In this document: one piece after another, positions 38 to 18,867 of the stretch
How the letters are laid out: each line of letters begins with the position of its first letter
Numbering within the stretch: the stretch's first letter is position 1
Virus record (IMG/VR): IMGVR_UViG_3300025418_001163
Coordinates: 1-23,290 of that record
Direction: 5' to 3' (one strand)
Length of the DNA stretch: 23,290 bases
DNA from: a virus
Position numbers and translations under genes: made by a program
The notes under the pieces: model-generated
The model's input: the letters and a program-made list of their open reading frames with translations, nothing else
Database searches by the model: none
Told to the model about the DNA's origin: nothing

Positions 38-547
38 ATGGCACACCCATATCAAAACCCACATGACCCATTCAAGGATCGTTACCCAGATCCATGGTCA
101 AAGAATCAAGTAACAAATACAGTCAAGCCAGCAGAGATTACTATTCAGTCTCTATTCCCTCAGTTCAATCGCTGGGCTATCGGCTTTGATCCTCTTCTAC
201 AGACCCTGCAGCAAGTCTCAGCTACCGCTAAGCAGGCCAGCTATCCGCCTTATAACATCTACAAGGATGGGGACAAATACGTCCTAGAACTGGCTGTAGC
301 CGGTTTTGGTAAGGAAGATATCACCATTACTGTAAAAGAGCTCCAGTTGACCGTAGAAGGCCAATTAGAGGCATCTGAGGCGGAGCCTATCCATAAGGGA
401 ATCGCTACCCGTGACTTCAAGCAAAACTTCGTGTTAGCCGAGTATGTAGTAGTCAAGGGAGCAGAGCTTAAGGATGGAATGCTCCGAATCACCCTAGAAC
501 AAGAGCTGCCCGAAGAGATGCAGCCAAAGTTGATTAAAATCAAATAA
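38..547 (+). CDS. Small heat shock protein, Hsp20/IbpA-like
   Basis: A 169-aa protein whose residues about 69-158 form an alpha-crystallin domain of the IbpA type. It opens with PPYNIYKDGDKYVLELAVAG, continues through an L-x-V-x-G strand and a GIATRDF segment, and has the KGAELKDGMLRITL block near the end. The C-terminal KLIKIK carries the I-x-I motif used for oligomer contacts in this family. The N-terminal arm of about 68 residues is Pro/Gln-rich. Family knowledge: these ATP-independent holdases keep unfolding proteins soluble, and phage copies are known, notably in cyanophages. The start is set by the AAGGAGA ribosome site at about 24-30. The role here (protecting host or virion proteins during infection) is inference; the family call is firm. 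Confidence 0.93.
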   Translation: MAHPYQNPHDPFKDRYPDPWSKNQVTNTVKPAEITIQSLFPQFNRWAIGFDPLLQTLQQVSATAKQASYPPYNIYKDGDKYVLELAVAGFGKEDITITVKELQLTVEGQLEASEAEPIHKGIATRDFKQNFVLAEYVVVKGAELKDGMLRITLEQELPEEMQPKLIKIK

Positions 548-827: not shown

Positions 828-900
828 TGACCTTTAGCTCAGCAGGCAGAGCACTCGACTGTTAATCGAGTTGTCCCTGGTTCGATCCCAGGAAGGTCAG
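828..900 (+). tRNA. tRNA-Asn (GTT)
   Basis: A complete cloverleaf: acceptor TGACCTT/AAGGTCA (828-834/893-899), D stem GCTC/GAGC, anticodon stem CTCGA/TCGAG with loop CTGTTAA (anticodon GTT), T stem CCTGG/CCAGG with loop TTCGATC, and discriminator G900. CCA is not encoded. It probably shares a transcript with the upstream tRNA-fMet. Confidence 0.96.
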
Positions 901-904
901 CGGC

Positions 905-1300: not shown

Positions 1301-1509
1301 TGTGGTCTTGGTTACTTGCAATCATTGGAGTGACAGGAATCTACTTTGTAGGTCGTAAGACTATATGGGGTTGGTTTGTTCTCCTGTTCAATGAATGTCT
1401 ATGGACTGTCTACGCTATCCATACTAAACAATACGGGTTTATATTTGCCTCTTTAGCGTATGCTATTACCTATATCCGGTCATATAGGCACTGGGCTAGG
1501 GAGAAGTAA
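1300..1509 (+). CDS. Small integral membrane protein
   Basis: A 69-aa hydrophobic protein with about two to three membrane segments: roughly residues 2-17 (WSWLLAIIGVTGIYFV), 21-40 (TIWGWFVLLFNECLWTVYAI) and 46-60. The tail is basic (RSYRHWAREK). Its overlapping start and stop couple it to the genes on both sides. Size and topology would fit a holin, but the lytic enzyme is far away on the other strand and no holin motif is specific enough, so no function is assigned. Confidence 0.7.
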   Translation: MWSWLLAIIGVTGIYFVGRKTIWGWFVLLFNECLWTVYAIHTKQYGFIFASLAYAITYIRSYRHWAREK

Positions 1510-1934
1510 TGTCTGATAAGTATCGTGCTCGGCACTTCATGCCTATAGTTGATCCCGATAACTATGCTGCAATGGCAGCTGCCCTACGATACGACAGAGA
1601 ACGTAGCCGACTTTGTGGTCCAGGCTATGAAGAGATTTATGCCCCCACCTCAGGTGGTCCACGCCCTCGTGCCCAGAAGTGCTGCTATAACGCCAACACT
1701 GAAACCCTCGTTATTGTAATGACAGACCCCGGCGCCGGTGGTAGGGCTCAATATACCTGGATTCAATATGATGGGGTAAATGTGGGGGATTGGGAGGTAC
1801 TTAAGAATGGTACCTCTACTAATGACTTTGTAAATGACGCTCTTTTAGGGGTTCCTTGGCTTAGGACCTCCTATGGTACACTTCCTAGGACAAGATCAGA
1901 AACATTTGAGCTAGGTAGCCAAGAGTATTTGTGA
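1509..1934 (+). CDS. KTSC-like domain protein (tentative)
   Basis: A 141-aa protein whose start overlaps the stop of the membrane protein gene (TAATG). Residues about 57-115 have the layout of KTSC domains: a Tyr followed by LVIVMTDPG, a YTWIQYDGV strand, then a helix ending in NDFVNDALLGVPW. The N-terminal half is Arg/Tyr-rich with several Cys and is not recognised. KTSC domains have been linked to nucleic-acid-associated proteins, but their function is poorly known. The domain call rests on pattern alone. Confidence 0.5.
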   Translation: MSDKYRARHFMPIVDPDNYAAMAAALRYDRERSRLCGPGYEEIYAPTSGGPRPRAQKCCYNANTETLVIVMTDPGAGGRAQYTWIQYDGVNVGDWEVLKNGTSTNDFVNDALLGVPWLRTSYGTLPRTRSETFELGSQEYL

Positions 1935-1963
1935 TACGCTAGGTTTAGACTAGAGAGGGAAAA

Positions 1964-2533
1964 ATGACAACAATTGCAGCAATTCAAGGTGACGGTTGGG
2001 TAGTAATGGGTGCAGACACTCAATCTACCGTTTCTGAGTACAAACGCCTTAAGATGGCTAACGATAAAGTTATTGATAATAATGGGATCCTAATTGCCGG
2101 TTGTGGCATGGGACGTGGCATGGATCTTATGCAAAAGGCATGGGTTGCCCCAAAACCTCGTAAATCCCGCATGAGTATTGATGAGCTCGATAAGTGGATG
2201 GCTAAGACTTTTATTCCTCAAATGCGTCAGCTATTCATTGATGGTGGCTATGATATGAAGGATGACGGCGAGTACGCTCAACACGAGGGTGCATTTATTG
2301 TCGCTGTACAGGGCGTTGTATTTTATATTGATGACGACTACTCCTTTGACCGTGAAGCTCGTGGGGTTACTACATCTGGTAGCGGTGGGGACTTTGCTGC
2401 CGGTTCATTATTTAAAAAAGATTTAAGCACTATAGAAAAAGCTAAGAAGCAAATGGAGATTGCTGTAGACGCTGCCAGAGAGTATGACGTCTATTCTGGT
2501 GGAGAAACCCGCATTTACGTACAAGAGGCCTAA
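1964..2533 (+). CDS. Proteasome beta/HslV-like Ntn-hydrolase peptidase
   Basis: A 189-aa protein starting MTTIAAIQGDGWVVMGADTQ. After Met removal, Thr2 would be the catalytic N-terminal nucleophile. Asp18 matches the proteasome D17 position and Lys35 lies close to the K33 position. The later blocks fit too: GSGGDFAAG at about 139-147 and a helix leading to EYDVYSGG (about 173-180), matching the conserved Ser and Asp-x-x-Ser-Gly-Gly motifs. Length is close to HslV/20S beta subunits without a propeptide. The family makes threonine peptidases that assemble into rings. No ATPase partner is visible in the window. The substrate is unknown; scaffold, virion or host targets are all possible. Confidence 0.85.
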   Translation: MTTIAAIQGDGWVVMGADTQSTVSEYKRLKMANDKVIDNNGILIAGCGMGRGMDLMQKAWVAPKPRKSRMSIDELDKWMAKTFIPQMRQLFIDGGYDMKDDGEYAQHEGAFIVAVQGVVFYIDDDYSFDREARGVTTSGSGGDFAAGSLFKKDLSTIEKAKKQMEIAVDAAREYDVYSGGETRIYVQEA

Positions 2534-2595: not shown

Positions 2596-3705
2596 ATGTA
2601 CATGGCAACTAATCTCGAAGGCAATAGCCTAGAGTCATGGACAGTTTATACAGGTAACCCAATTACCGGTAATACAAGCTTGTCTGTGTCAACAACCTCT
2701 GCAACATACGCATACGCTATGTTGACAAATATCACCACATCAACTGTTACGGGTCGCCCTAACGTTGATTTCGTATGGGGTAACTTCCCACTACAACCAA
2801 ATGATGAGCGTTCTGCAGGAACTCCATCCGCAACTGTTACAGTCGGTGGATCACAGAACGTATCATGGACCAACACCTCAACTGTTAACTCTGCTTATCT
2901 CACCTATACTCAGGATTCCGAGAACATCGCAGAAGCTAACTACTCAGGATTCCCAAGCTTTATTGCTGCGGACCCAATCCTTCGTGTAACAGCTGCTTCA
3001 GGAAATGGTACAACCGTCACCTATACAGCTCAATCAAACGGAATCGTCCCAGCTTCATTGGTTGGACAGAACGTAACCATCACAGGTCTCACAAACTCTG
3101 CATTCAACCTAACAAACGCCACAATCGCATCAGCTACAGCTTATCAGTTCACAGTAACTAACTCAGCTGGTTCAGGCGTATCAATCACTGGTCAAACAGG
3201 CTACGCACAACTTGGTGCTGGAGCATCTGACTCAGATGGTGCATTCGTAGGCACAACCGCTTATGTAACTGTTCCATCAGTTCTTGGCCTATCAACCTCT
3301 AATGCTCAAACACTTCTTGGTGATGTCGAGCTTGTTGTTACAACTGCAGGTTCTGCAACTAACACACCAATCTCAATCACTGCTGCTGCTCGTACTGCTA
3401 GCTCAGCTACTGCAACTGTTACAGCTACAGGTGCTGGCGCTGCGTTCCCAATTGGTACAAAGATCACAATTGCTGGTCTTGCAGATGCTACAACAACAGA
3501 ACTTAACGGTACATGGACTGTTACCGCAAGTGCGACAAACACTGTCTCATTTGTCTCTAACAACACAACCGCTATCGCTGTTGCTTCACCTACAGGTACC
3601 CCAACAGTCAAGGGTGCTTCTGCAACAATCAAGACCCAGAGCGTTGCTGCGGGTGCTGCATCAATCGCCGCTGGTGCTGCGATTACAATCACACCTTGGG
3701 CCTAA
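2596..3705 (+). CDS. Modular all-beta virion surface protein (probable)
   Basis: A 369-aa Ser/Thr/Ala/Val-rich protein with no cysteine. Residues about 128-205 and 259-348 are two related beta modules: the first contains the string GQNVTITGLTNSAFNLT, the second a divergent IGTKITIAGLADATTTELNG. Between them, residues 222-252 (TVPSVLGLSTSNAQTLL) resemble a PASTA repeat. Codons favour AAC, ATC and TTC as in the capsid gene, which suggests high expression. Translation may start at 2596 or at the second ATG, 2602. The terminator at 3722 closes the unit. A head decoration or tail-surface protein is likely; the exact position in the virion is unknown. Confidence 0.7.
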   Translation: MYMATNLEGNSLESWTVYTGNPITGNTSLSVSTTSATYAYAMLTNITTSTVTGRPNVDFVWGNFPLQPNDERSAGTPSATVTVGGSQNVSWTNTSTVNSAYLTYTQDSENIAEANYSGFPSFIAADPILRVTAASGNGTTVTYTAQSNGIVPASLVGQNVTITGLTNSAFNLTNATIASATAYQFTVTNSAGSGVSITGQTGYAQLGAGASDSDGAFVGTTAYVTVPSVLGLSTSNAQTLLGDVELVVTTAGSATNTPISITAAARTASSATATVTATGAGAAFPIGTKITIAGLADATTTELNGTWTVTASATNTVSFVSNNTTAIAVASPTGTPTVKGASATIKTQSVAAGAASIAAGAAITITPWA

Positions 3706-4029: not shown

Positions 4030-4192
4030 CAGCTGTTCAGCTAGAGCCACAACCCTAGTTTTGCTGCCTTATGGAGAATTAGCCTTTTGCAGCCATCATT
4101 ACAATAAAAACACTAAAGCACTTACAGATGCCGGGGGAATTGCTAAACTTCTGGGAGTATCTGAGGATAGATCGGAAAATCATGCAAGCTAA
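3956..4192 (+). CDS. DUF7455-like zinc-binding protein
   Basis: The product is 78 aa from ATG 3956, or about 67 aa from ATG 3989. It has a C-D-S-C knuckle (C24, C27) and a second site FCSHHYN (C45, H47, H48), the CxxC...FCxHH layout of the small DUF7455 proteins common in Actinobacteria. AACGGA before 3956 favours the longer form, which overlaps the previous gene by 74 bases. The function of the family is unknown. It is one of the hints of an actinobacterial host. Confidence 0.7.
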   Translation: MTQLMEPELQGMPQVEDFQQRIQCDSCSARATTLVLLPYGELAFCSHHYNKNTKALTDAGGIAKLLGVSEDRSENHAS

Positions 4193-5024
4193 GAATGGCA
4201 GCAACATTGTTCAAGCCGGTAATGGCGGCAATCTCATTAGCAAGCTAATAGAGCCATGGACCGCAGCAAATAAGGCAAAAATTACTATGGCCTTGCAGGA
4301 TAGGTATCTAGAGAAGCAAACCGAAGAACATGGAAAGCGCCAATCTGCTCTTACTACTGAGATGAATAAGCGCAATGCTTTTAAGGCTGTTCTTCCAGCA
4401 TACGCACAGGTGCACGCTCATGAGATGTTTACTGAAACTTATGGCGAAGATCACCCCGATGTAGTTTCAGGAAAGAAAGTTGCGGGAGAACCTCTTCGTC
4501 CAGAACTTACTGCTTCTTATCGTGCTCGTGGATTAGCTGGTTCTCAAATTGCTTCTGAATCTCCAGGTGAGCGTCAGGAAGCAGGACGTCAGAAGACAGA
4601 ACAAGAAAAACAAAAAACACTTGCAATGGTTCGAGAGAATGCAGACTTTGGTGCTTGGCAAAAGATGAAGAGTGATGGTTCTGAAGGCGGAAAGATAAAG
4701 AACCCACAATTTGATGCATCCGCTGCAGTAGCTTCTTCTCCTGTTAAAGGTTGGAATCCAGAAGAGAACGATATTCAATCTGCTCTTAATGCAAATAACC
4801 AACGAAATCTTCTTCCATTTACATCAACTGCCGGTGAATCTGGTAATTGGACCCCAACAAAGTTTGAGCCAAGTGGTCAACCTACTTTTAGTGAAAATGA
4901 TGCTGAAGAGCTACGCAGTATTTCTAATCAATCACCTAATGATACTCGAGCCGGATTCGGTGCTCGTGCAACAGAACAAAGTCGTTTATCCAACCTCAAT
5001 GTCGGAACTCAAGAAGGAAAGTAA
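4182..5024 (+). CDS. Hydrophilic hypothetical protein (280 aa)
   Basis: I place the start at ATG 4182 (MQAKNGSNIVQ), which overlaps the upstream stop by 11 bases and has GAGGA upstream. A start at 4128 would add 18 residues and overlap the previous gene far more. Residues about 35-75 look helical and charged; about 120-160 are Gln/Glu/Lys-rich; the C-terminal third is Asn/Ser/Pro-rich and probably disordered. There is no membrane segment, cysteine or recognised family. With the adjacent 835-aa gene it may form a pair of internal virion or assembly proteins, which is inference. Confidence 0.7.
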   Translation: MQAKNGSNIVQAGNGGNLISKLIEPWTAANKAKITMALQDRYLEKQTEEHGKRQSALTTEMNKRNAFKAVLPAYAQVHAHEMFTETYGEDHPDVVSGKKVAGEPLRPELTASYRARGLAGSQIASESPGERQEAGRQKTEQEKQKTLAMVRENADFGAWQKMKSDGSEGGKIKNPQFDASAAVASSPVKGWNPEENDIQSALNANNQRNLLPFTSTAGESGNWTPTKFEPSGQPTFSENDAEELRSISNQSPNDTRAGFGARATEQSRLSNLNVGTQEGK

Positions 5025-5027
5025 ACC

Positions 5028-7535
5028 ATGGGCCAATTTGATCGTATTGTAAAGCCTGCTACTAGTGCAAGGCCAGCTGTTATTGAGCCAGGTGCCGGCA
5101 TTGATATTGGACAACCTATTCAAAGTGCTGCAGATGCTGTTCAGGCTGGAGCAGGTCTAGTAGTTAATCCACGTGACACTGCATTTCAAAAGAGCAGCAG
5201 TGGTAACCCAAAACCAAACAAATCCCTACCTCGTACTGCCAAAAAGGCTGCTAAGTTTGAAGGGTCACGTCGTCAACGAGCTGCACATAAGGCACAGCTA
5301 AATACAACAACCATGCGTATGGGTGCTGACGGTGAGGCATATGATCTTGAAGATGTGCAGGCAAAGTCTACGGCTCCCGCTACCCCAGCAAGCCCGGTAA
5401 CACTTCTTAATGGACCACGTAGGTCAGCCCCTAAAGCCTCTATTGGAAGAAACGAAAACTTCCATGCAAGTACGGAAGTTGCAGCTCGTGCTAACTATCT
5501 ACTCCAGGGTGTCCCGGCAGCTGCTAGGCAAGCAGCAGAAGCCGCAGAGGCAACTGAGTCAGAGCGTCAAGGTATGATCGCCGGAGAAAATAAGTTTAAC
5601 GAAGAACAAAAACGTACAGGAGGTTCTTTGCGCTCTGAGCGAGGAATCACTTACGATCTTAATGATATGCGGGCAGAGATAGATAAAAAGGGAAGTCCCG
5701 ATATTGCTACAAATAAGCCTACAACAGTATCTGCAAAACACAAGCAATGGTCTGAATTTAAAAACCGAATGGTTTCTGAACATGGCGTTATCCCTGAAAT
5801 TAAAAAGGGAAGTCCTGAAGGAGAGAGCGGCACAAAAGACGACCTTCGTCCTAGCTCTATTATTCCTACGGCACCACAATTAGAAGATTTAGGAAAAGAC
5901 AGCGAACGTGCAGTTGGAACTGAAATCACTAAAGAAGAAAATTATGGAACTGAAGCTAAAGCAGCTCCTGCTCCAGAAGCAGAAGAAGACAAGCTTGCTA
6001 GAGAAAAAGCAGAAGCGGCTGAAAAGAACAGTGCTCAGCTAAATGAAGTTAAAGAATACGAGCAAAAGAGTAAGGGCCGCAATAAAGAGGCGGGCATGGA
6101 TACTCGTGCTGATGTAAATCGTGGTACTCAATTTAAGCAACCTTCTAGGGTTGTTGGGCAAGAAGTTGAAAAATCACTTGGCGGTCAAGTTGTAGTAGAG
6201 ACGCCTATGAAGGAATTCTCAAATAAAGAGTGGAACCGCAGAGTTCGTGAATCTAAAATTGACGCTGGTCCAGAAAGTACTACTATTGAGTTACATGATC
6301 TTCCTGAAGAAGGTACGGACATTGTTACTCCTGTTAGGGAACGTGGTGTACAAGTTACCCCTAAGAAGCCAAAAGTTATTTCGCTTCCTAATGGCCCATT
6401 GACAGAAGCTCAAACTGAGCAAAAAGAAAAATTACCTAAGACAGTTCGTTTTGAAGGACCACGCAGCGTTATTCCAGACACGGCTATGTCAACTGCTGTT
6501 GATACAGAAAAGACTGATGCCGAACTGCATGCTGAGAACCTTAGGGATATTAGCAACAGAATGCCTTCTGGATATAGCGGTACTGGTCCTTATGATCCTA
6601 ATAAGACATCTGCTCGACCAAATCGTATGCAGACCAGAGAACAACGTGCTATTAGGGCGTCAAAGCGTAGAACACGTGCAGAAAAATTTGGTTCGGACTT
6701 TGCACCAAAGCTTCATACTCCAGAAATTATGCAAACAGCTAAGCTTATTGGTCAACAAACCTATGGTTTGTCACCTGAAGCTATGGCCCACCCTGATTTT
6801 CATGGACACGAGGCTGTTGCTGAGGCGTACATTGCACACCGACTTGGAATTCATAACTCTTTAGAAAAGCTAAATACTGCTCTTGGTGGACTTACCAATG
6901 AGCGTGCAGAACGCCGAGGTGCTTGGTATAAGCTACTTGAGTCAGAAGATCGTGGAGATGAGGCATTTAAGGGTGCCGGAGATGTGCTTCGTGGTCTTGT
7001 AGGCGGAGAAAAGAACATTACAACTGTTAACCGTAAAATTGGACAAGGTGAAGAAACCGGAGTTCAACTACACGGAAAAGCTATTGAGCACTTTATTGCT
7101 AAGCAAAAAGACCAATCTAATAGAGAAAACCTTAAAACCACTACTATGCGTATGGGTGCTAATGGTCAAGCCTATGATATTGAAGATCGTGCTGCAAAAC
7201 CAATTTCATTCCCTGAAAATGTAGATGTTTCTGCTGCTACCCCAACAGGGTCTAGCAAAAGACTTATTCAAGCTCAGGCACATGCAGGCCATTTAGAGAG
7301 TGGAAAGAATGTAGTCGGCTGTAAGCACTGCGCCGCCCTATCTTCTACGCAATCACGTGCTAATGCAGCTACTGTTGCTGGTACATTTATTCCGCCAAAG
7401 GCAGAGACTGGACGAGTTGCAGTTCGTAAAATTGACCAAGTTCCTGAAAAGGCAACTGTTCGTTCTCTTTCTGAAGAAGAAAAGGCTAATAAGTCCAATC
7501 TTTCTGGCAAGGACGATTCTAAGTTTAGGTTCTAA
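5028..7535 (+). CDS. Large, mostly disordered repeat-bearing protein (835 aa)
   Basis: Starts 3 bases after the previous stop. It is very rich in Lys, Glu, Ala, Arg and Pro with few hydrophobic stretches, so most of it is probably unstructured. A peptide motif recurs: TTTMRMGADGEAYDLED (residues 93-109), RSERGITYDLNDM (202-214, weaker) and TTTMRMGANGQAYDIED (704-720). A more ordered, helical region lies near 555-660 (PEIMQTAKLIGQQTYGLSPE onwards). A zinc-like site H755, C765, C768 (GCKHC) lies near the C-terminus. No family is recognised. Position among structural and accessory genes suggests an internal virion or assembly protein, but this is not shown. Confidence 0.75.
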   Translation: MGQFDRIVKPATSARPAVIEPGAGIDIGQPIQSAADAVQAGAGLVVNPRDTAFQKSSSGNPKPNKSLPRTAKKAAKFEGSRRQRAAHKAQLNTTTMRMGADGEAYDLEDVQAKSTAPATPASPVTLLNGPRRSAPKASIGRNENFHASTEVAARANYLLQGVPAAARQAAEAAEATESERQGMIAGENKFNEEQKRTGGSLRSERGITYDLNDMRAEIDKKGSPDIATNKPTTVSAKHKQWSEFKNRMVSEHGVIPEIKKGSPEGESGTKDDLRPSSIIPTAPQLEDLGKDSERAVGTEITKEENYGTEAKAAPAPEAEEDKLAREKAEAAEKNSAQLNEVKEYEQKSKGRNKEAGMDTRADVNRGTQFKQPSRVVGQEVEKSLGGQVVVETPMKEFSNKEWNRRVRESKIDAGPESTTIELHDLPEEGTDIVTPVRERGVQVTPKKPKVISLPNGPLTEAQTEQKEKLPKTVRFEGPRSVIPDTAMSTAVDTEKTDAELHAENLRDISNRMPSGYSGTGPYDPNKTSARPNRMQTREQRAIRASKRRTRAEKFGSDFAPKLHTPEIMQTAKLIGQQTYGLSPEAMAHPDFHGHEAVAEAYIAHRLGIHNSLEKLNTALGGLTNERAERRGAWYKLLESEDRGDEAFKGAGDVLRGLVGGEKNITTVNRKIGQGEETGVQLHGKAIEHFIAKQKDQSNRENLKTTTMRMGANGQAYDIEDRAAKPISFPENVDVSAATPTGSSKRLIQAQAHAGHLESGKNVVGCKHCAALSSTQSRANAATVAGTFIPPKAETGRVAVRKIDQVPEKATVRSLSEEEKANKSNLSGKDDSKFRF

Positions 7536-7537
7536 TC

Positions 7538-7720
7538 ATGTCACGTACCGATTCATTTAACGATAGGCCACGTGATAGGCAGCTTCCCCGCAATTTACGC
7601 AACAACGCTCGGGAAGCTGCTGAATACCTAACTGGTCTAAAACCAGATCGCCCAGACGACTCACACGTAATAACCCGACAAAAATACGGTCGTGGTGCTA
7701 ATGGGGAGTCTGCAAGCTAA
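7538..7720 (+). CDS. Small basic hypothetical protein (60 aa)
   Basis: A 60-aa Arg/Asp-rich protein starting 2 bases after the previous stop, with its own stop overlapping the next start (TAATG). Its end, KYGRGANGESAS, resembles part of the MGANGQAYD repeat of the upstream 835-aa protein, hinting at a shared linear motif. It is otherwise unrecognised. Confidence 0.6.
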   Translation: MSRTDSFNDRPRDRQLPRNLRNNAREAAEYLTGLKPDRPDDSHVITRQKYGRGANGESAS

Positions 7721-7923
7721 TGGCACGCCGTATTGACTATAACATTAATGGTAAGATTAATGGTCTTACAAGCCATTCATGGACTTGCAACACCTGTGCC
7801 TACCACGTAACTAAACTTGGTGGGGCTTCTGCTATCCGTGCAGGTAAAAAAGAGGCGTATAATCATTCCTGTGTGGATACCTCTGATTCACAAGAAAAAC
7901 AACGTAAGGACACATTCGGATGA
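7720..7923 (+). CDS. Small zinc-finger-like protein (67 aa)
   Basis: A 67-aa basic protein with C23, C26, H49 and C51 (WTCNTCAYH ... NHSC), a plausible single zinc site. It overlaps the genes on both sides (TAATG before, ATGA after), so it sits in a tightly coupled operon. It could bind nucleic acid or protein. No family is recognised. Confidence 0.65.
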   Translation: MARRIDYNINGKINGLTSHSWTCNTCAYHVTKLGGASAIRAGKKEAYNHSCVDTSDSQEKQRKDTFG

Positions 7924-8183
7924 CAACTAAGAAGAAATCAGCTGCGTGGACTCGTAAAGAGGGTCAAAATCCTAATGGTGGGTTAAATGCTAAAGGTCGT
8001 GCCTCTGCTAAGAAAGAGGGCCACAATCTTAAGGCACCCAGCAAGGATCACGACAACAAGCGCCATAAATCTTTCTGTGCTCGAATGAAGGGCATGAAGA
8101 AGCACAATACCTCATCTAAGACAGCTAATGATCCTAATAGCCGTATTAATAAATCTCTACGTGCATGGGACTGTGATTGCTAA
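7920..8183 (+). CDS. DUF6321-like basic phage protein
   Basis: An 87-aa Lys/Asn-rich protein. It reads AWTRKEGQNPNGGLNAKGRA, then FCARMKGMKKHNTSSKTAND, SRINKSLRAWDCDC. This order (W-x-R-x-E-G-x-N-P-x-G-G-L-N-x-K-G-R, then S-F-C-A-R-M, then a final A-L-R-x-W-like tail) is the pattern of a small family widespread in phages, DUF6321-like. The function is unknown. Starts and stops overlap both neighbours. Confidence 0.75.
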   Translation: MTTKKKSAAWTRKEGQNPNGGLNAKGRASAKKEGHNLKAPSKDHDNKRHKSFCARMKGMKKHNTSSKTANDPNSRINKSLRAWDCDC

Positions 8184-9205: not shown

Positions 9206-9206
9206 G

Positions 9207-9277
9207 CTCCCGAACATGGATTCGAACCACGATAGCCAGTGCCAAAAACTGGAGTCCTGCCGTTAGACGATTCGGGA
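9207..9277 (-). tRNA. tRNA-Gln (TTG)
   Basis: Read on the minus strand: acceptor TCCCGAA/TTCGGGA, D arm GTC...GAC, anticodon stem CCAGT/ACTGG with loop TTTTGGC (anticodon TTG), T stem GTGG/CCAT-type with loop TTCGAAT, discriminator G. CCA is not encoded. It lies just downstream of the lytic transglycosylase gene on the same strand and probably shares its transcript. Confidence 0.93.
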
Positions 9278-9285
9278 TAGACCTG

Positions 9286-9849
9286 CTAAACCGCCAATAT
9301 TTGAGGACAGAGCTTAAGCCACATCTGAACTAGATAGTGATCTCTTTCACCTGGGTTAGCATGCCAAGGTGACCAATCCCTACCCCCAGCAGACATCTGA
9401 TAGGCGATTTGAGCGTTCTTTACTGGATTGGTTAGTTCTTGGGCAGACTTAAGATGAAACTCGCTTATACGGCCCTTCAGAGCCCCGTAAAGGTTAATCT
9501 GGAAGACTCCATAGGAATCGTCTCCAGTCTTACGGTTAAAGTCATGGGCAATAGGGTTTCCATGAGTTTCTTTCATAGCAACAGCCCAGGCGATCTTTAG
9601 GGAACGGCCTTTAAACCCTACCATCTGTAATAGCTGGTAAAGCTGCTTTGGGGAGAGTTTCTTAGCTACTTCGAGTTTGCCAATAGGAGTTAAGCACCTT
9701 TGGACTATCGGGGCTGCCGCCCTAGCTGAAAACGTTATAATATTTGTAATTGTTAAAAGGGCTATAAGCCCAAGGATTAGATATTTCCTTTTGTCATATA
9801 AATTCACACTATCTCCTAGGCTAGAGAGCCAACCCGAATCTTCACTCAT
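9286..9849 (-). CDS. Membrane-anchored lytic transglycosylase (SLT-like)
   Basis: A 187-aa protein on the minus strand. Residues 22-44 form one hydrophobic segment (KYLILGLIALLTITNIITF...) without a clear cleavage site, so a signal anchor is likely. The catalytic domain follows: AWAVAMKETHGNP with the predicted catalytic Glu94, SYGVFQINLYGAL (112-124), NPVKNAQIAY (141-150) and GGRDWSPWHA (155-164). This is the SLT/goose-lysozyme-like order (E-T/S-x-x-x-P, G-x-x-Q-I, N-x-x-x-x-A). It cleaves peptidoglycan glycan strands. AGGTGA precedes the ATG. Lysis is the likely role, though wall penetration at entry is possible. Confidence 0.87.
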   Translation of the reverse strand: MSEDSGWLSSLGDSVNLYDKRKYLILGLIALLTITNIITFSARAAAPIVQRCLTPIGKLEVAKKLSPKQLYQLLQMVGFKGRSLKIAWAVAMKETHGNPIAHDFNRKTGDDSYGVFQINLYGALKGRISEFHLKSAQELTNPVKNAQIAYQMSAGGRDWSPWHANPGERDHYLVQMWLKLCPQILAV

Positions 9850-10591: not shown

Positions 10592-10814
10592 AAAAAAGAT
10601 CTATGAGCGTAAAGTTACTAAAGCTCAAAAAAGAGTGGCTATGTTGCCTACACCTGAACTGCTTACGTGGAGTGATCAAGTGCTCTATAGTATTGGAAAA
10701 AATTTAGCTGGTTGGCAAAGAAGCCAGAATCCGCAGACTTTAGAAGAAGCACGGCTAGGGGCTGAGGTAATTCAGGCCATAACAGAAACATTAACTGAAA
10801 GAGCTCTACGTTGA
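10584..10814 (+). CDS. Small helical protein upstream of terminase
   Basis: A 76-aa helical protein. The C-terminal half LEEARLGAEVIQAITETLTE looks like an amphipathic helix; the N-terminus is basic (FKKKIYERKVTKAQKR). Its stop overlaps the TTG start of the large terminase (TTGA). The position would fit a small terminase subunit, but it is shorter than most and no helix-turn-helix is clear, so the function is left open. Confidence 0.6.
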   Translation: MFKKKIYERKVTKAQKRVAMLPTPELLTWSDQVLYSIGKNLAGWQRSQNPQTLEEARLGAEVIQAITETLTERALR

Positions 10815-12388
10815 GTCAATTTGAAGATGAAGATCTAAGTCAAGAAGATTTAGACGACGAGATAGGTCCTATAACAGAGGATGAAGAAGATGAGCTAGAC
10901 GAGCTCTCTAAAGAATTCGTAACTGTTTTAATTGATAAAATCATGGACTTTATGAAGCTTCTTGTAGGTCATGAACTTCACCCATATCAAGTACCGTTAG
11001 CTAGGCGCATTATTGAATCTGTGATCATTAATGATGGCGAAGAAATCACTGCGTTGGCTTCTCGTCAGTCTGGTAAGTCTGAAACCATCGCCAATACGGT
11101 GTCAACCCTCATGGTTATCTTGCCACGCCTAGCACGTATTTATCCAGATCTATTAGGTAAGTTTGGTGATGGTATTTGGGTGGGAATGTTCGCACCTGTA
11201 CAAAACCAGGTAGAAACGCTTTATGGCCGTACAGTATCTCGTCTAACTTCTGAAAGAGCTATGGAGATCTTTGGTGATCCCGAAATTGATGATATGCCAA
11301 CTAAAACTCCAGGTGTAGTAAGAAACCTTAAGCTTAAGAAGTCTGGCAGTAGCCTTATGATGATGACAGCTAACCCTAGAGCTAAGATTGAATCTAAGTC
11401 TTTCCACTTGATCATTATTGATGAGTGTCAAGAAGCGGACGATTTCGTTGTATCAAAGTCAATTGCACCTATGGGTGCCTACTACAACGGAACTATCGTT
11501 AAGACCGGAACACCAACAACCCACAAGAATAACTTTTACCGTGCTATTCAGATGAATAAGCGCAGGCAAACTGGCGGACGCAATGCAAAGCAGAACCATT
11601 TTCAATGGGACTGGAAAGATGTTGCTAAGGTTCAGGCTAACTATGAGAAGTTTATTAAGAAAGAAATGCTTCGTATCGGTGAGGACTCTGATGAGTTCCA
11701 GCTGTCATACAACTGCAAGTGGTTGCTAGAACGAGGTATGTTTGTAACCTCTGGCATTATGGATGACTTGGGTGATACTTCACAGGAAACTGTAAAAGCT
11801 TGGCACCGTTCTCCAGTAGTAGTGGGCATTGACCCAGCTCGTAAGATGGACTCAACGGTGGTAACTGTTGTGTGGGTAGACTGGGATCGTCCAGATGAAT
11901 ATGGTTATTATGACCATAGAGTGCTTAACTGGCTTGAGCTTCAGGGCGATGACTGGGAAGAGCAATATTTCCAGATACAACAGTTCCTGGCTAGCTATGA
12001 TGTCCTTGCTATTGGCGTAGATGCTAATGGTGTTGGTGATGCAGTGGCTCAGCGTTTAAAGGTTCTTATGCCACGAGCTGAGGTTGTACCAGTTACTTCT
12101 AGTCCTACTGAGCAATCTAAGCGGTGGAAACACCTTCAGGCCCTTATTCAACGCCAAATGGTTTCCTGGCCAGCACATGCTAAGACTCGTAGACTACGTA
12201 TTTGGAAGAAGTTCTATCAGCAAATGACAGATGCTGAAGTTCAGTATAAAGGCCCTAACTTCTTGGTAGCAGCCCCTGATGAGGCTCACGCTCATGATGA
12301 CTTTGTTGATTCATTGGCCCTAGCATGTTCTCTTACACAAGAGATGGTTATGCCAACTATTGAGGTTTCAGCAAGCCCATTTTTCTAA
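10811..12388 (+). CDS. terL: Terminase large subunit
   Basis: A 525-aa two-domain packaging motor. The ATPase domain has Walker A SRQSGKS (84-90), Walker B LIIIDE (200-205) and a motif III-like KTGTPTT (231-237). The nuclease domain (RNase H fold) has acidic residues D341 (VVGIDPA), D404 (AIGVDANG) and D497/D500 (HDDFVDSLAL). The first 35 residues are very acidic. I use the TTG start at 10811, which overlaps the previous stop; the first in-frame ATG (residue 45) would cut into the conserved N-terminal region. The enzyme cuts concatemers and pumps DNA into proheads through the portal encoded downstream. Confidence 0.96.
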   Translation: MSQFEDEDLSQEDLDDEIGPITEDEEDELDELSKEFVTVLIDKIMDFMKLLVGHELHPYQVPLARRIIESVIINDGEEITALASRQSGKSETIANTVSTLMVILPRLARIYPDLLGKFGDGIWVGMFAPVQNQVETLYGRTVSRLTSERAMEIFGDPEIDDMPTKTPGVVRNLKLKKSGSSLMMMTANPRAKIESKSFHLIIIDECQEADDFVVSKSIAPMGAYYNGTIVKTGTPTTHKNNFYRAIQMNKRRQTGGRNAKQNHFQWDWKDVAKVQANYEKFIKKEMLRIGEDSDEFQLSYNCKWLLERGMFVTSGIMDDLGDTSQETVKAWHRSPVVVGIDPARKMDSTVVTVVWVDWDRPDEYGYYDHRVLNWLELQGDDWEEQYFQIQQFLASYDVLAIGVDANGVGDAVAQRLKVLMPRAEVVPVTSSPTEQSKRWKHLQALIQRQMVSWPAHAKTRRLRIWKKFYQQMTDAEVQYKGPNFLVAAPDEAHAHDDFVDSLALACSLTQEMVMPTIEVSASPFF

Positions 12389-13251: not shown

Positions 13252-14964
13252 ATGAGTGGTGGTATTGATTTTTCACCTCCCAGTTATAGGGCGGCGTCAT
13301 CTGACTTAACTATCTCCATTTCTCCTCTGGGACTTGTAGAGCTAGCAGACGAAGAGTTCGAAGTACATGGGCCACGTCTAAATAGGTATTCATTAAACTG
13401 GGCCATGTATCTGGGCCATCACTGGTCTTATCGCCGTGAAATTGGCGAATCACAGATGGTATACAACTACTATCGTGCTTTTACAGATTACATCGTAAAC
13501 TTTACATTTAGCCGTGGCGTAACATTCCGTAGCCCTAAGCAGACTGAAGCTATCGTCCCTAACATTCTAAAGCGTGTTTGGGAGACAGATAACAATAAGC
13601 AAGGCATTTTGTGGGAAATGGGTCAACAAGGCGGCGTTTCAGGAGACTGCTTCGTAAAGGTGGCCTATGAAGAGGCATACGAAGACTCAGTAGGCTTTAT
13701 GCACCCAGGTAAGGTGCGTATTCTTCCCCTTAACTCATCTTTCTGTTTTCCAGAATTTCACCCCCATGATCGCTCACGTTTGATCCGTTTCAAGCTCAAG
13801 TATCGTTTCTGGGGTACATCTATTGAAGGAACCCGTCAGGTCTATACATACACTGAAATCCTGACTGATGATCGTATTGAAGAATATATTAACGATGAAC
13901 TTATTGACTCTCGCCCTAACCCAATCGGCGTAGTCCCAGTCATCCATATCCCTAACGTCCTAATCTCTGGCTCTCCATGGGGCCTATCTGATTGCCACGA
14001 CGTAATTATCCTTAACCGTAACTATAACGAAGTTTCTACCGATGTAGCAGATATCATCAATTACCACGCTGCTCCGGTAACAGTTATCACAGGAGCTAAG
14101 GCTTCTGCCCTTGAGAAGGGCCCTAAGAAGATTTGGGGCGGTCTTCCAAAGGATGCACAAGTATTTAACCTAGAAGGTGGCGGACAAGGCCTCGTAGGAG
14201 CTATGCAGTACCTTGAGACCCTAAAGACCGCTATGCATGAGATGGTGGGTGTTCCTGAGACTGCTCTTGGACAAATGCAGCCAATCTCTAATACATCAGG
14301 TGTAGCCCTTGCTATTCAGTTCCAGCCTTTGATGAATCGCTACCAACAGAAGCTGGTTCAGTATAGCGAGGGTCTACGTAGAATCAATGAACTGATATTA
14401 TTAACCCTGGCCTTTAAAGAACCTGAAGTTTTCACTTGGAACCAAGAAGTTTATGGGCCAATCAAGCAGGGTCAGCTTCCTCAGCTAGATCTTACCGATC
14501 CAATTACATATCAATCTATTGTTCATTTCCCACCTCCACTTCCACTAGATAAGCTGATCGTCTTGAATGAAATTCAACAAAAGATGAACATGAATCTAGA
14601 GAGCCGTGAAGGCGCTTTACGTCAATTAGGCGAAGAGTTTCCTAACGAGAAGTTGGAAGAGATTAGGTCAGAGCTCATTGCAGATGCTAAATCTGATGGT
14701 GCTTTGAACCTAATTAAGCAGCAGATCCAATCTGCTATTACAAGTTTGACTGGAATGATGCCAGATGGAACCCTTCCACCTGGAGCTGCACCTGCAGATG
14801 GCATGGGCCCTGGCCCTCTAGGCCAACCAGGTGTCATCACTCCGTTCGAAGAGCAAACCCTTGCAGGACTTCAGAATGAGCTGATTGTAGAGGCGTATGG
14901 TGCCCGCACCCCACGTCAAGCATCAGATCAAAAGGACACCCCAAACTCTGAGGAAAACAAGTAA
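13252..14964 (+). CDS. Portal protein
   Basis: A 570-aa protein placed between terminase and scaffold/capsid, where portals sit. Its length and residue pattern fit portals: an early helix-rich wing (NRYSLNWAMYLGHHWSYRRE), a QMVYNYYRAFTDYIVNFTFSRGV segment, a central beta-rich region ending NPIGVVPVIHIPN, a long helix near EMVGVPETALGQMQPISNTSG, and a C-terminal Pro/Gly-rich stretch (about 514-540). Portals form a dodecameric ring at the head vertex, the DNA channel and the dock for the terminase. The ATG at 13252 has a weak GGAA upstream. Confidence 0.88.
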   Translation: MSGGIDFSPPSYRAASSDLTISISPLGLVELADEEFEVHGPRLNRYSLNWAMYLGHHWSYRREIGESQMVYNYYRAFTDYIVNFTFSRGVTFRSPKQTEAIVPNILKRVWETDNNKQGILWEMGQQGGVSGDCFVKVAYEEAYEDSVGFMHPGKVRILPLNSSFCFPEFHPHDRSRLIRFKLKYRFWGTSIEGTRQVYTYTEILTDDRIEEYINDELIDSRPNPIGVVPVIHIPNVLISGSPWGLSDCHDVIILNRNYNEVSTDVADIINYHAAPVTVITGAKASALEKGPKKIWGGLPKDAQVFNLEGGGQGLVGAMQYLETLKTAMHEMVGVPETALGQMQPISNTSGVALAIQFQPLMNRYQQKLVQYSEGLRRINELILLTLAFKEPEVFTWNQEVYGPIKQGQLPQLDLTDPITYQSIVHFPPPLPLDKLIVLNEIQQKMNMNLESREGALRQLGEEFPNEKLEEIRSELIADAKSDGALNLIKQQIQSAITSLTGMMPDGTLPPGAAPADGMGPGPLGQPGVITPFEEQTLAGLQNELIVEAYGARTPRQASDQKDTPNSEENK

Positions 14965-15074: not shown

Positions 15075-15848
15075 ATGGCAGAAAACTCAACAGCAGTGGA
15101 CAGTGCAGTGGCTCAAGAAGCGTTTGCTTCAGAAGTTCAAGGTACAGCTCCAGTTGCACAGCAGGCAGTGGCCCCAACAGCTCAGTTTACTGAAGTTAAG
15201 GGCTATACAGATGAAGACTTGAAGCGTGTACGTGAGCAAGAGAAATCTAAGCTCTATCCACAGATTGATTCCCTAAAGGAAGAAATCAGTCTTCTTAAGA
15301 AAGACCGTGAAGAGCGTTTGGCAGAAGCACAACGCATTGCGGAAGAGAAAGCAGAAGAAGCTCGTAAGAAGGCAGAATCTGAGATGGACGTTCGTTCACT
15401 TCTTGAACAGAAGGAGAAGGAATGGAAAGATCAGCTAGAACAGATCCGCCAAGACAATGCCCGCAAGGATGCACTGCTTGAGCGTGAGCGTCAATATGCA
15501 GAGCTTACGAACTATCGTAATCGTCGTCTAGAAGAAGAGCGTGAAAATATCATGCCTGAACTAGTAGACTTGATCTCAGGCAATAGCCCAGAAGAGATCG
15601 AACAGAGCATTACTGGACTTAGGGATCGTACCTCTAAGATCTTGGAATCGGCGCAGCAAGCCATTGCGGCTCAGCGTCGTGATATGAAAGGCACAAGTAC
15701 AACTTTGCCTCCACTTATGGACAACAATTCGGCCTCACAATCGTTTACAGCGGAACAAATTGCCGCTATGTCGGTTGCAGATTACGCAAAGAACCGAGAC
15801 CGTTTGCTCCCAGGAGTAAACTCTCAAGCTAAAGGAATCTTTGGATAA
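15075..15848 (+). CDS. Capsid scaffolding protein (probable)
   Basis: A 257-aa protein directly upstream of the capsid gene. Residues about 45-150 form a long charged coiled coil (EEISLLKKDREERLAEAQRI...). Flanks are Ala/Gln/Ser-rich. The C-terminus, FTAEQIAAMSVADYAKNRDR then LLPGVNSQAKGIFG, is a compact end like the capsid-binding tails of scaffolds. No protease domain is seen. Scaffolds direct prohead assembly and are then removed. CCTAAGGAAT precedes the ATG. Confidence 0.82.
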   Translation: MAENSTAVDSAVAQEAFASEVQGTAPVAQQAVAPTAQFTEVKGYTDEDLKRVREQEKSKLYPQIDSLKEEISLLKKDREERLAEAQRIAEEKAEEARKKAESEMDVRSLLEQKEKEWKDQLEQIRQDNARKDALLERERQYAELTNYRNRRLEEERENIMPELVDLISGNSPEEIEQSITGLRDRTSKILESAQQAIAAQRRDMKGTSTTLPPLMDNNSASQSFTAEQIAAMSVADYAKNRDRLLPGVNSQAKGIFG

Positions 15849-15891: not shown

Positions 15892-16968
15892 ATGGCATCA
15901 GCCGTAACAGGTACCGGCAACCTCGCCGCAGCACCTACAGCGTATTCTGGCGCTAACAGCCAGCTTACACAAGCAATTCAGACCATCTGGTCAAAGGAAA
16001 TCCTATTCCAATCAATGCCTATCCTTCGCTTCGAACAATTCGCAGTTAAGAAGACAGAACTTGGCGTAGCTCCTGGTCTCCAGATCAACTTCATGCGTTA
16101 TAACAACCTCGGCTTCGCAGCCCCATTGGTTGAAGGTGTTCGTATGACAACCAACGCATTGACAGCTCAACAGTTCTCAATCACCGTTGCAGAACAAGGA
16201 TACGCAATTGCAGTATCTGAGCTTCTTCTCAACGCTTCATTCGATGACGTAATGGCTTCAGCTTCACGTCTTCTCGGTCGCAACATGGCTCTCTACCTTG
16301 ATGGCCAGGCTCGTGACACCCTTATGGCAGCATCTTCAGTCATCTACGGCGAAGATCGCTCAAACCTCTCAGCAGTCAACAACTGGTATGCATACGGCAC
16401 AGAAGCAACTTCTCGTGCAACAATGACCGGTGCTTCATACCTCTCAACCCGTACCGTTAAGGACGCAGTTGAGACATTGGCAACCAAGAACATCCCAAGG
16501 CTTGGCGAGACCTACGTAGCATTCGTACACCCTCACCAATCACGTCGTCTTCGTGACCTCCCAGAGTTCATTGAAGTCACAAAGTACGCTGCTCCAGGTA
16601 ACTTCATGCTCGGTGAAATTGGTCGTTTGTACGACACAGTCTTCATTGAGACAACCCAAATCACCAAGGTAACCAACGGTGCAGGTTCAGGATATACAAC
16701 TGATACAGCAGTAGCTCCAGGATCAATCTCTTACCCAACTGGTGGAGGTTACACAACTCCAGTAACAGCTACAGGTAACGGTTCATCTGACCGCTACTCA
16801 GCTATCTTCATTGGAGACAATGCATTCGGTCACGCTATCTCACTTCCAGTTGAGCTTCGTGACGGCGGTATTCTTGACTTCGGTCGTGAGCACGCTCTTG
16901 CTTGGTACGCAATCTACGGTCTTGGTCTTATCACTGACCAATCTGTAGTTATCGCAGAAACCAACTAA
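15892..16968 (+). CDS. Major capsid protein, N4-gp56 family
   Basis: A 358-aa protein with the N4-gp56-type layout: a Q-x-I-W-S-K-E-I-L N-terminal helix, INFMRYNNLGFAAPLVEGVR at about 65-85, then an ITVAEQGYAIAVSEL strand-helix, RNMALYLDGQARDTLM and a C-terminal GGILDFGREHALAWYAIYG. Codons are strongly biased to AAC, ATC, TTC and CTC, as expected for the most abundant virion protein. A Gly/Thr/Ser-rich insert at about 265-300 may be a surface loop. ACAAGGAGTAAACCGAC precedes the ATG. The scaffold lies immediately upstream and a strong hairpin follows the stop. Confidence 0.92.
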   Translation: MASAVTGTGNLAAAPTAYSGANSQLTQAIQTIWSKEILFQSMPILRFEQFAVKKTELGVAPGLQINFMRYNNLGFAAPLVEGVRMTTNALTAQQFSITVAEQGYAIAVSELLLNASFDDVMASASRLLGRNMALYLDGQARDTLMAASSVIYGEDRSNLSAVNNWYAYGTEATSRATMTGASYLSTRTVKDAVETLATKNIPRLGETYVAFVHPHQSRRLRDLPEFIEVTKYAAPGNFMLGEIGRLYDTVFIETTQITKVTNGAGSGYTTDTAVAPGSISYPTGGGYTTPVTATGNGSSDRYSAIFIGDNAFGHAISLPVELRDGGILDFGREHALAWYAIYGLGLITDQSVVIAETN

Positions 16969-17523: not shown

Positions 17524-18867
17524 GTGGCAACTTTAAGCGCTCTCTCTGACCGTTTACGTGCAGAACTTGGCGATACCGCCAGATCCTTCGTAGACACTCT
17601 TACAGGTGACGAAAGTACTGTTCGCTTTCAAATGTCTCAAGCCCCTGTACAGGGCTCCACTCTTTCTATTCAAGTAACTACCCCAGGCTCTACAGCCACA
17701 GTTACGGGCGCATCTGCCGCCCTAGGTATTGTTACCTACACCACCATATCTAACACATTTGCTACAGGACAATTAGTAACAATCACCGGTCTTAGCACAT
17801 CAGCATTTAACCTTACCAAAGTACTTATAACATCCGCTACCAGCACATCTTTTACAGTGGCTAGCAGCGCTACCGGCACAGCAGTTACCAATGCATCTGC
17901 TCAGGCAGTGGCCGGAACTAATACTCAAGATGTTTCCTCTACCGCAATCGTAGAAGAGGGCACAGGAGTTCTTACTTTGGCAGTGGCCCCAGCAACCGGA
18001 TCCATTATCAATATCTCTGGACAGGCCTACCGTTACTTTACTGACTCTGAAATAGCTTATTACATTAATACGGCGTTCTCTCAGCACACCAGTACAGAGA
18101 CTACCAGCCTAGGAAGTAACATCACTCAACTGGCATTCCTACCGCCTATTGAGGAATACCCCCTAGTTATTCTTGCCTCTACGCTGGCCCTCTATACGCT
18201 AGCTAATGACTCAGCTTTTGATATTGACATTATCTCTCCAGACGGTGTTTCTATCCCTCGTTCTGAACGTTACCGTCAGGTTATGGAAATTGTTCAGACC
18301 CGTAAAGAACAATACATTGAGCTTTGTAAGATGTTGAACCTCGGACTCTATCGAATTGAGGTCTTTAGTCTACGTCGCATCAGCCGTCTTACAAATCGGT
18401 ACGTACCTATCTACAAGCCTCAAGAGATTGATGACTGGTCACTACCGCAACGAGTCATGCTCCCTACCCCTACATATGGGGACGTTACTCCTCCAGAGCC
18501 AATTATGGTTCAGGATCTGGAAATGTACTCAGGAGACGACTTCTCTATGGAGTTTGGCTTCAGCTTTGACCTTACTAACTACACGCCTAAATCAGAGATT
18601 GTTCTTTACCAGAATAGTGAATTCTCTCAAGTTGGCCCAGTTATCCTAGGTACCTTTAATATTACTAAGGTAACCCCACAAGGCGCCAGTGTTCCAACAC
18701 TTCTACAGATGACTCTTCCAAGCAGTGTCACAGAGATGCTTCCAAAGGTCTCTTACTATGATCTACGACTTACCGATCAGAATGGTCTTAAGAAGACCTA
18801 CTTTGGCGGAAAGGTCTATACCTTCCCATCCGTAACCAATTCCTATAATTATGCGAGTTCAGTATGA
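17524..18867 (+). CDS. Head-tail connector with inserted beta module
   Basis: A 447-aa protein from GTG 17524 behind TGGAGG. Residues 1-55 and 140-280 form a connector-like core: LSDRLRAELGD, TVRFQMSQAPV, then GTGVLTLAVAPATGSIINIS and YFTDSEIAYYINTAFSQH. Residues about 56-131 are an inserted beta module with GQLVTITGLSTSAFNLT, closely related to the module in the 2596-3705 protein. Residues about 345-435 (DFSMEFGFSFDL ... YYDLRLTDQNG ... YFGGKVYTF) look like a BppU-type N-terminal baseplate domain. It probably joins the head to the tail or fibre apparatus. Its stop overlaps the next start (ATGA). Confidence 0.72.
   Translation: MATLSALSDRLRAELGDTARSFVDTLTGDESTVRFQMSQAPVQGSTLSIQVTTPGSTATVTGASAALGIVTYTTISNTFATGQLVTITGLSTSAFNLTKVLITSATSTSFTVASSATGTAVTNASAQAVAGTNTQDVSSTAIVEEGTGVLTLAVAPATGSIINISGQAYRYFTDSEIAYYINTAFSQHTSTETTSLGSNITQLAFLPPIEEYPLVILASTLALYTLANDSAFDIDIISPDGVSIPRSERYRQVMEIVQTRKEQYIELCKMLNLGLYRIEVFSLRRISRLTNRYVPIYKPQEIDDWSLPQRVMLPTPTYGDVTPPEPIMVQDLEMYSGDDFSMEFGFSFDLTNYTPKSEIVLYQNSEFSQVGPVILGTFNITKVTPQGASVPTLLQMTLPSSVTEMLPKVSYYDLRLTDQNGLKKTYFGGKVYTFPSVTNSYNYASSV

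Follow-up and report, generated by a model that had tools for sequence, protein, structure and literature searches.

An apparently active proteasome-like threonine peptidase that seems to be exchanged among actinophages

The phage DNA studied here (the window, i.e., the whole 23,290-base IMG/VR record IMGVR_UViG_3300025418_001163) carries a gene for a proteasome/HslV relative that is apparently active as an enzyme. The reading that we prefer, with a probability of roughly 0.55, is that of an accessory, ATP-independent, exchangeable threonine peptidase of actinophages: a group I enzyme (HslV/BPH/AAH-like) that would be catalytically competent and carried as an exchangeable cassette. The family itself is already known in phages (PHROG 1040; group I homologs, PMC8665760). 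What appears to be new, judging from the sequences compared, is that the gene is very common in these actinophages and repeatedly swapped, with constant catalytic residues; no description of its frequency in actinophages or of an allele-like exchange was found in the open-licence literature, and none of the open-licence papers searched reported a functional test of a proteasome homolog from a phage. The gene, its likely ribosome-binding site and the codons of its predicted catalytic residues are as follows (slot proteins are the peptidases encoded after the portal gene in a separate group of ~40-kb phages, see below).

1953..1959, + strand: likely ribosome-binding site (gagaggg), read in the sequence; most relatives are preceded by similar purine-rich stretches.
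1964..2533, + strand: proteasome-like N-terminal-threonine hydrolase gene, 189 aa; PHROG 1040, PF00227, AF2 model and fold matches.
1967..1969, + strand: Thr2 codon, predicted nucleophile (mature Thr1); Thr in 63/63 relatives and 64/64 slot proteins, placed on residue 1 of solved chains by structural alignment.
2015..2017, + strand: Asp18 codon (proteasome Asp17); Asp in 62/65 and Glu in 3/65 relatives, Asp in 64/64 slot proteins, aligned to Asp17 of yeast beta5.
2066..2068, + strand: Lys35 codon (proteasome Lys33); Lys in 65/65 relatives and 64/64 slot proteins, aligned to Lys33 of yeast beta5.

The protein starts with Met-Thr-Thr, the first Thr codon immediately following ATG, and therefore has no propeptide; relatives with an intact start likewise have Thr at position 2. 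The initial annotation had placed the gene at 1964-2533 and pointed to the motifs GSGGDFAAG and EYDVYSGG; the coordinates are correct and both motifs are present. A search with the Pfam proteasome model, which it had proposed, resulted in a marginal pass (PF00227, 23.3 bits, gathering score 22.4); in a six-frame search the same model gave only 13.5 bits, under the cut-off. PHROG 1040 ("peptidase HslV family") matches the protein over its full length (residues 1-187, E 1.3e-22). The NCBIfam equivalog cut-offs are missed, both those for HslV (TIGR03692, 20.6 bits vs 157.75; NF003964, 20.8 vs 137) and that for the archaeal proteasome beta subunit (TIGR03634, 21.6 bits vs 224), and solved yeast beta5 chains match weakly at the sequence level. 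Pfam also gave R_equi_Vir as a weak match at E 0.0044, under the cut-off, which was taken as chance.

The AF2 model built with 62 relatives has a mean pLDDT of 93.1 and a pTM of 0.89; it superseded an earlier run on 24 close sequences, which had given a poor model (pLDDT 69). Foldseek comparison with the PDB returned HslV (E 2.9e-11), the beta-proteobacterial proteasome homolog (BPH) and proteasome beta as the best folds. In the VIA alignment, BPH 5ovt ranked first (171 residues aligned, Z 20.5, rmsd 2.4), and proteasome beta chains from an archaeon and from yeast came next, within about one Z unit. Thr2, residue 2 of the model, fell on residue 1 (Thr1) of the solved chains. Many phages, among them Gordonia phage Daredevil and Caulobacter phages, encode proteins with similar predicted structures. 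The equation of Thr2, Asp18 and Lys35 with proteasome Thr1, Asp17 and Lys33 thus stands, the three residues being conserved in the relatives and aligned to solved chains. The initial annotation had made its proposal dependent on an Ntn-hydrolase fold and on a conserved Thr2; the AF2 model has the proteasome fold, and Thr2 is present in all 63 relatives. Proteasome homologs can also be ligases, as the precedent of connectase shows (PMC8665760), and the phage protein could accordingly be a connectase-type ligase or a specific processing enzyme and not a protease. The model, however, contains both helix pairs and no obvious strand 3-4 insertion of the connectase kind, and we regard such a function as extremely unlikely.

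Residue conservation was counted over 65 non-redundant relatives, and over 63 in the case of Thr2, because the mechanical choice of start codons removed the N-terminus in two rows. Besides the residues listed above, Ser140 and Asp175 are present in 65/65 relatives; Asp175 varies among the 64 slot proteins of the 40-kb phages, in which the catalytic Thr, Asp and Lys are invariant. In close comparisons dN amounted to 0.016-0.093, against dS values of about 0.8-2.9 that approach saturation (no defined value for L005), and the gene is under strong purifying selection with respect to its close relatives. These data bear on the possibility that the protein is a decoy subunit which joins or blocks a proteasome or HslV ring of the host; the initial annotation had suggested that it might join or block a proteasome-like ring. 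Its fold is the same as that of the ring subunits, and actinobacteria commonly have a 20S proteasome. Nevertheless, there would be little reason for an inert subunit to retain Thr, Asp and Lys under purifying selection, and blockage of a host ring by such a subunit is therefore disfavoured. Furthermore, the protein shares no more than about 17-25% of its residues with ring subunits of solved structure, and docking into one conserved host ring fits poorly with the highly divergent, interchangeable versions described below. A decoy role is in our opinion very unlikely.

The distribution of the peptidase gene was compared with that of the structural genes of the window, two of which served as yardsticks.

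10811..12388, + strand: terminase large subunit (yardstick gene), PF17289/PF03237; 53% identical to Streptomyces phages.
13252..14964, + strand: portal protein (yardstick gene); the portal annotated in LuckySocke is 57% identical.
15075..15848, + strand: scaffolding protein; the scaffold annotated in LuckySocke is 37% identical.
15892..16968, + strand: N4-gp56-family major capsid protein, TIGR04387 142 bits; 74% identical to LuckySocke.

The closest cultured relatives by terminase (53%) and capsid (74%) are the Streptomyces phages LuckySocke, Alone3, BRock, pSt2308 and GiJojo. WhiB, an actinobacterial regulator, is encoded in 23 of 24 related records, and among 14 control genomes only Corynebacterium was positive. 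From WhiB and the Streptomyces phage relatives we infer that the host of the window phage is probably an actinobacterium. Our impression of a mainly lake setting of these phages comes from the relatives and from phage DSL-LC01, the source of which was lake water. The portal frames of G001 (96902-98626) and G006 (56922-58658) each contain one in-frame TAA, which may reflect an intron/insert or a sequencing error.

At least 545 relatives of the window peptidase are present in IMG/VR. When records were chosen by their terminase and not by the peptidase, all four of 93-104 kb carried the gene (one of them had already been met earlier via its peptidase gene), as did 10 of the 16 shorter fragments. 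The complete genome of the soil relative LuckySocke possesses no peptidase gene. Over 14 genomes, identity to the window copy was well correlated between terminase and portal (rho 0.89); the corresponding values were -0.23 for peptidase vs terminase and -0.03 for peptidase vs portal (for two records, a stand-in locus of near-equal identity was used as input). In addition, the relatives have the gene in several different neighbourhoods (synteny table), and in the window the peptidase and terminase genes are separated by more than 8 kb. Given this uncorrelated divergence and the several contexts, the peptidase is therefore kept, yet moves and is exchanged. The peptidase tree contains open forks, long branches and unsettled bootstrap values, and just its better-supported points were used; among them, the peptidase of L019, a member of the 40-kb group, clusters with window-type proteins, and therefore both phage groups draw on a shared peptidase pool. 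No relatives were found in the bacterial genome contigs scanned; the bacterial relatives are located on plasmids of Rhizobium, Paraburkholderia, Streptomyces and Bacillus. Two of them, from Rhizobium sp. CB3090 (L255) and Paraburkholderia sabiae (L257), are carried by large plasmids of root-nodule bacteria, and the stretches read around them contained no recognisable phage genes.

The near-universal presence of the gene in the sampled freshwater clade and its absence from the soil phage LuckySocke would also be consistent with amino-acid salvage, i.e., with degradation of host proteins or peptides, without special targets, to supply protein synthesis by the phage in its nutrient-poor lake hosts. 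The missing dedicated unfoldase (see below) agrees with such a role too. On the other hand, a single soil relative is a thin comparison, and salvage gives no obvious reason for repeated divergent replacement at one slot; we consider it quite improbable.

This replacement is seen in the separate group of ~40-kb phages, where the gene order is terminase (phrog_38), portal (phrog_104), peptidase, phrog_8200 and a gene for a ~1600-residue protein. Eighty loci of this group were picked by their portal and not by the peptidase, and 73 of them had enough downstream sequence. The peptidase is located immediately 3' of the portal in 63 of the 73, and the slot is empty in the other 10, whose records showed no peptidase in the sequence available (four of these records are 37-40 kb long and were searched whole). 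The slot peptidases form five clusters (60% threshold), about 29-56% identical between clusters, with most cluster-pair averages at 29-40% and one pair at about 54%. In some phage pairs the portals are 97-98% identical, yet the peptidases only 32-33%. L268 and L271 share 94% DNA identity as far as position 2646, which lies 22 bases inside the peptidase gene (2624-3196); the similarity is absent across this gene and is back at 3190. On the basis of these comparisons, the slot peptidases are swapped between phages, with apparent breakpoints near the gene ends.

The order terminase-portal-peptidase places the enzyme in the classic position of a prohead protease, and in L033 it is encoded by the third gene after the capsid gene. 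The processing of assembly proteins, which the initial annotation had listed among the functions, is thus possible: the peptidase could replace a prohead protease in capsid maturation and clip or clear scaffold, portal-associated or ejection proteins. A search for S78 prohead proteases found none in 19 records. This proposal is weakened by the 10 of 73 portal-selected loci without the gene, including those searched whole, and by LuckySocke, whose capsid is 74% identical to that of the window phage and whose portal and scaffold are homologous to it, but which has neither the peptidase nor an S78 protease. Moreover, versions of ~30% identity interchange next to near-identical portals, and the window peptidase is distant from the terminase, at a position that shifts among relatives. 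We therefore regard capsid maturation, although it is the chief rival of the reading that we prefer, as unlikely. (LuckySocke gene 42, annotated as "peptidase", has no Pfam match and was rejected as a candidate.) Neither an indispensable prohead protease nor an inert subunit that blocks a ring would fit the genomes compared as well as an accessory, ATP-independent, host-facing peptidase.

The closest neighbours of the peptidase gene in the window are the following.

38..547, + strand: HSP20 small heat-shock chaperone gene, PF00011 54.5 bits, phrog_432; recurrent neighbour.
1509..1934, + strand: upstream neighbour, 141 aa, no assigned function; family 3 in the synteny table, common to many window-type relatives.
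2596..3705, + strand: downstream neighbour, 369 aa, Ala/Ser/Thr-rich; family 1, sub-threshold PASTA match.

An HSP20 gene is found less than 2 kb from the peptidase and on the same strand in 14 of the 28 non-redundant window-type loci whose flanks were long enough; it usually precedes the peptidase, by 114-1578 bases, and follows it in one locus. HSP20 is present in 8 of 20 records searched; by coordinates, it is near the peptidase in five of these eight large genomes and far from it in three. The pairing is recurrent and not obligate, and the related genomes are not independent. tRNA genes for Met, Asn and Gln are present at 610-684, 828-901 (+) and 9206-9277 (-), two of them between the HSP20 and peptidase genes. 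The product of 2596-3705 is a probable virion surface protein; it has a stretch (VTITGLTNSAFNLT) similar to one (VTITGLSTSAFNLT) in the product of 17524-18867, which suggests a putative common beta-rich virion domain. For the products of 4128-5024 (298 aa) and 5028-7535 (835 aa), no relatives were detectable in the four related records compared; open reading frames of the same length occupy this place in many relatives. The gene at 9286-9849 (-), opposite in direction to its neighbours, encodes a lysozyme-like protein that matches SLT_3 at 67.5 bits and probably has a membrane anchor. In another phage group, the peptidase gene is accompanied by those for a dual-specificity phosphatase, a histone-deacetylase-like protein and terminase: in L064, the histone-deacetylase-family gene (7148-8071; PF00850, E 3.6e-58) and the phosphatase gene (6610-7164) are situated between peptidase and terminase, and equivalents of this pair are present in nine other non-redundant loci.

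The initial annotation had noted no visible ATPase partner, and this holds as far as checked. Searches for an HslU-type ATPase (PF07724) in 13 relatives gave sub-threshold matches only. Matches to PF00004 are weak in many relatives, and none of them adjoins the peptidase; the one examined was of the MoxR/AAA_5 type and not HslU/ClpX. These AAA+ genes, which are kilobases away, were thus dropped as unfoldase partners. An unfoldase of the host could serve as partner.

For the accessory peptidase that we favour, the following scheme can be drawn. Host Met aminopeptidase would expose Thr1, and the subunits would stack as a double ring, as in BPH and HslV. The ring would act without ATP on unfolded chains or peptides, which the neighbouring HSP20 possibly holds for it, and would serve proteostasis or the removal of host proteins in infection. 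Among the functions put forward initially, degradation of host or unfolded proteins would be the best fit, although this is reached by inference. The swapped versions combine one chemistry with different bodies, which points to selection at the contact with the host, either for specificity or for evasion of an inhibitor or defence, and a host-facing role would best account for the exchange; it is also possible that the versions are functionally equivalent and swapped neutrally. A bolder proposal is that an ATP-independent mini-proteasome is a weapon of freshwater actinophages against their hosts: at least five distant peptidases appear to swap at one slot with the same catalytic residues and with breakpoints near the gene ends, as would be expected if hosts respond with inhibitors or if the versions differ in their targets. 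We put it forward tentatively, with the odds against it. If the pattern is true, abundant lake phages hold a proteasome-type peptidase with fixed chemistry and a swapped body, and the interchangeable and empty alleles represent a natural set for asking what the peptidase does in infection.

Several known systems resemble the window peptidase. Annotated phage members of PHROG 1040 include WJZ48484.1 of DSL-LC01 (an Actinomycetia phage), gp77 of Pitbull and gp81 of Hum25 (Arthrobacter phages), as well as proteins of Moorella phage MTATph1, Tenacibaculum phage pT24 (gp229) and Geobacillus virus E3 (gp65). Like the window peptidase, they match over the whole length and have Thr right after Met (Ser in pT24) together with the Asp and Lys, but they are only 25-31% identical to it and encoded in other genomic settings. 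HslV (ClpQ) shares the fold and the Thr/Asp/Lys site; the window peptidase differs in its score (20.6 bits vs 157.75) and in having no HslU. Salmonella jumbo phage pSal-SNUABM-04 possesses HslV without HslU (PMC7823757), a situation that resembles that of the window-type phages. BPH (5ovs, 5ovt, 5ovu), which forms a double ring of 14 subunits and has a long, acidic pore loop, has no propeptide and no partner ATPase found, and in some organisms it shares an operon with Hsp33 (PMC5777263). The window peptidase is similar in the missing propeptide and partner ATPase and in its stress-gene neighbours, and BPH is its best structural match (Z 20.5), though with archaeal and yeast proteasome chains close behind; however, it is 17% identical to BPH and is known from its sequence and a monomer model. 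Finally, AAH is a compact group I homolog without propeptide from phages, alpha-proteobacteria and actinobacteria (Fuchs, Alva and Lupas 2021, PMC8665760). The window peptidase has no propeptide either, and its plasmid-borne bacterial relatives are compatible with AAH; by the published description of AAH and the spread of these relatives, it is probably an AAH-type group I proteasome homolog. Fuchs et al. (2021, PMC8665760) found no actinobacteria-specific phages with AAH, whereas the window phage and several annotated actinophages carry genes of the PHROG 1040 type. If the window peptidase is indeed an AAH, it fills this gap.
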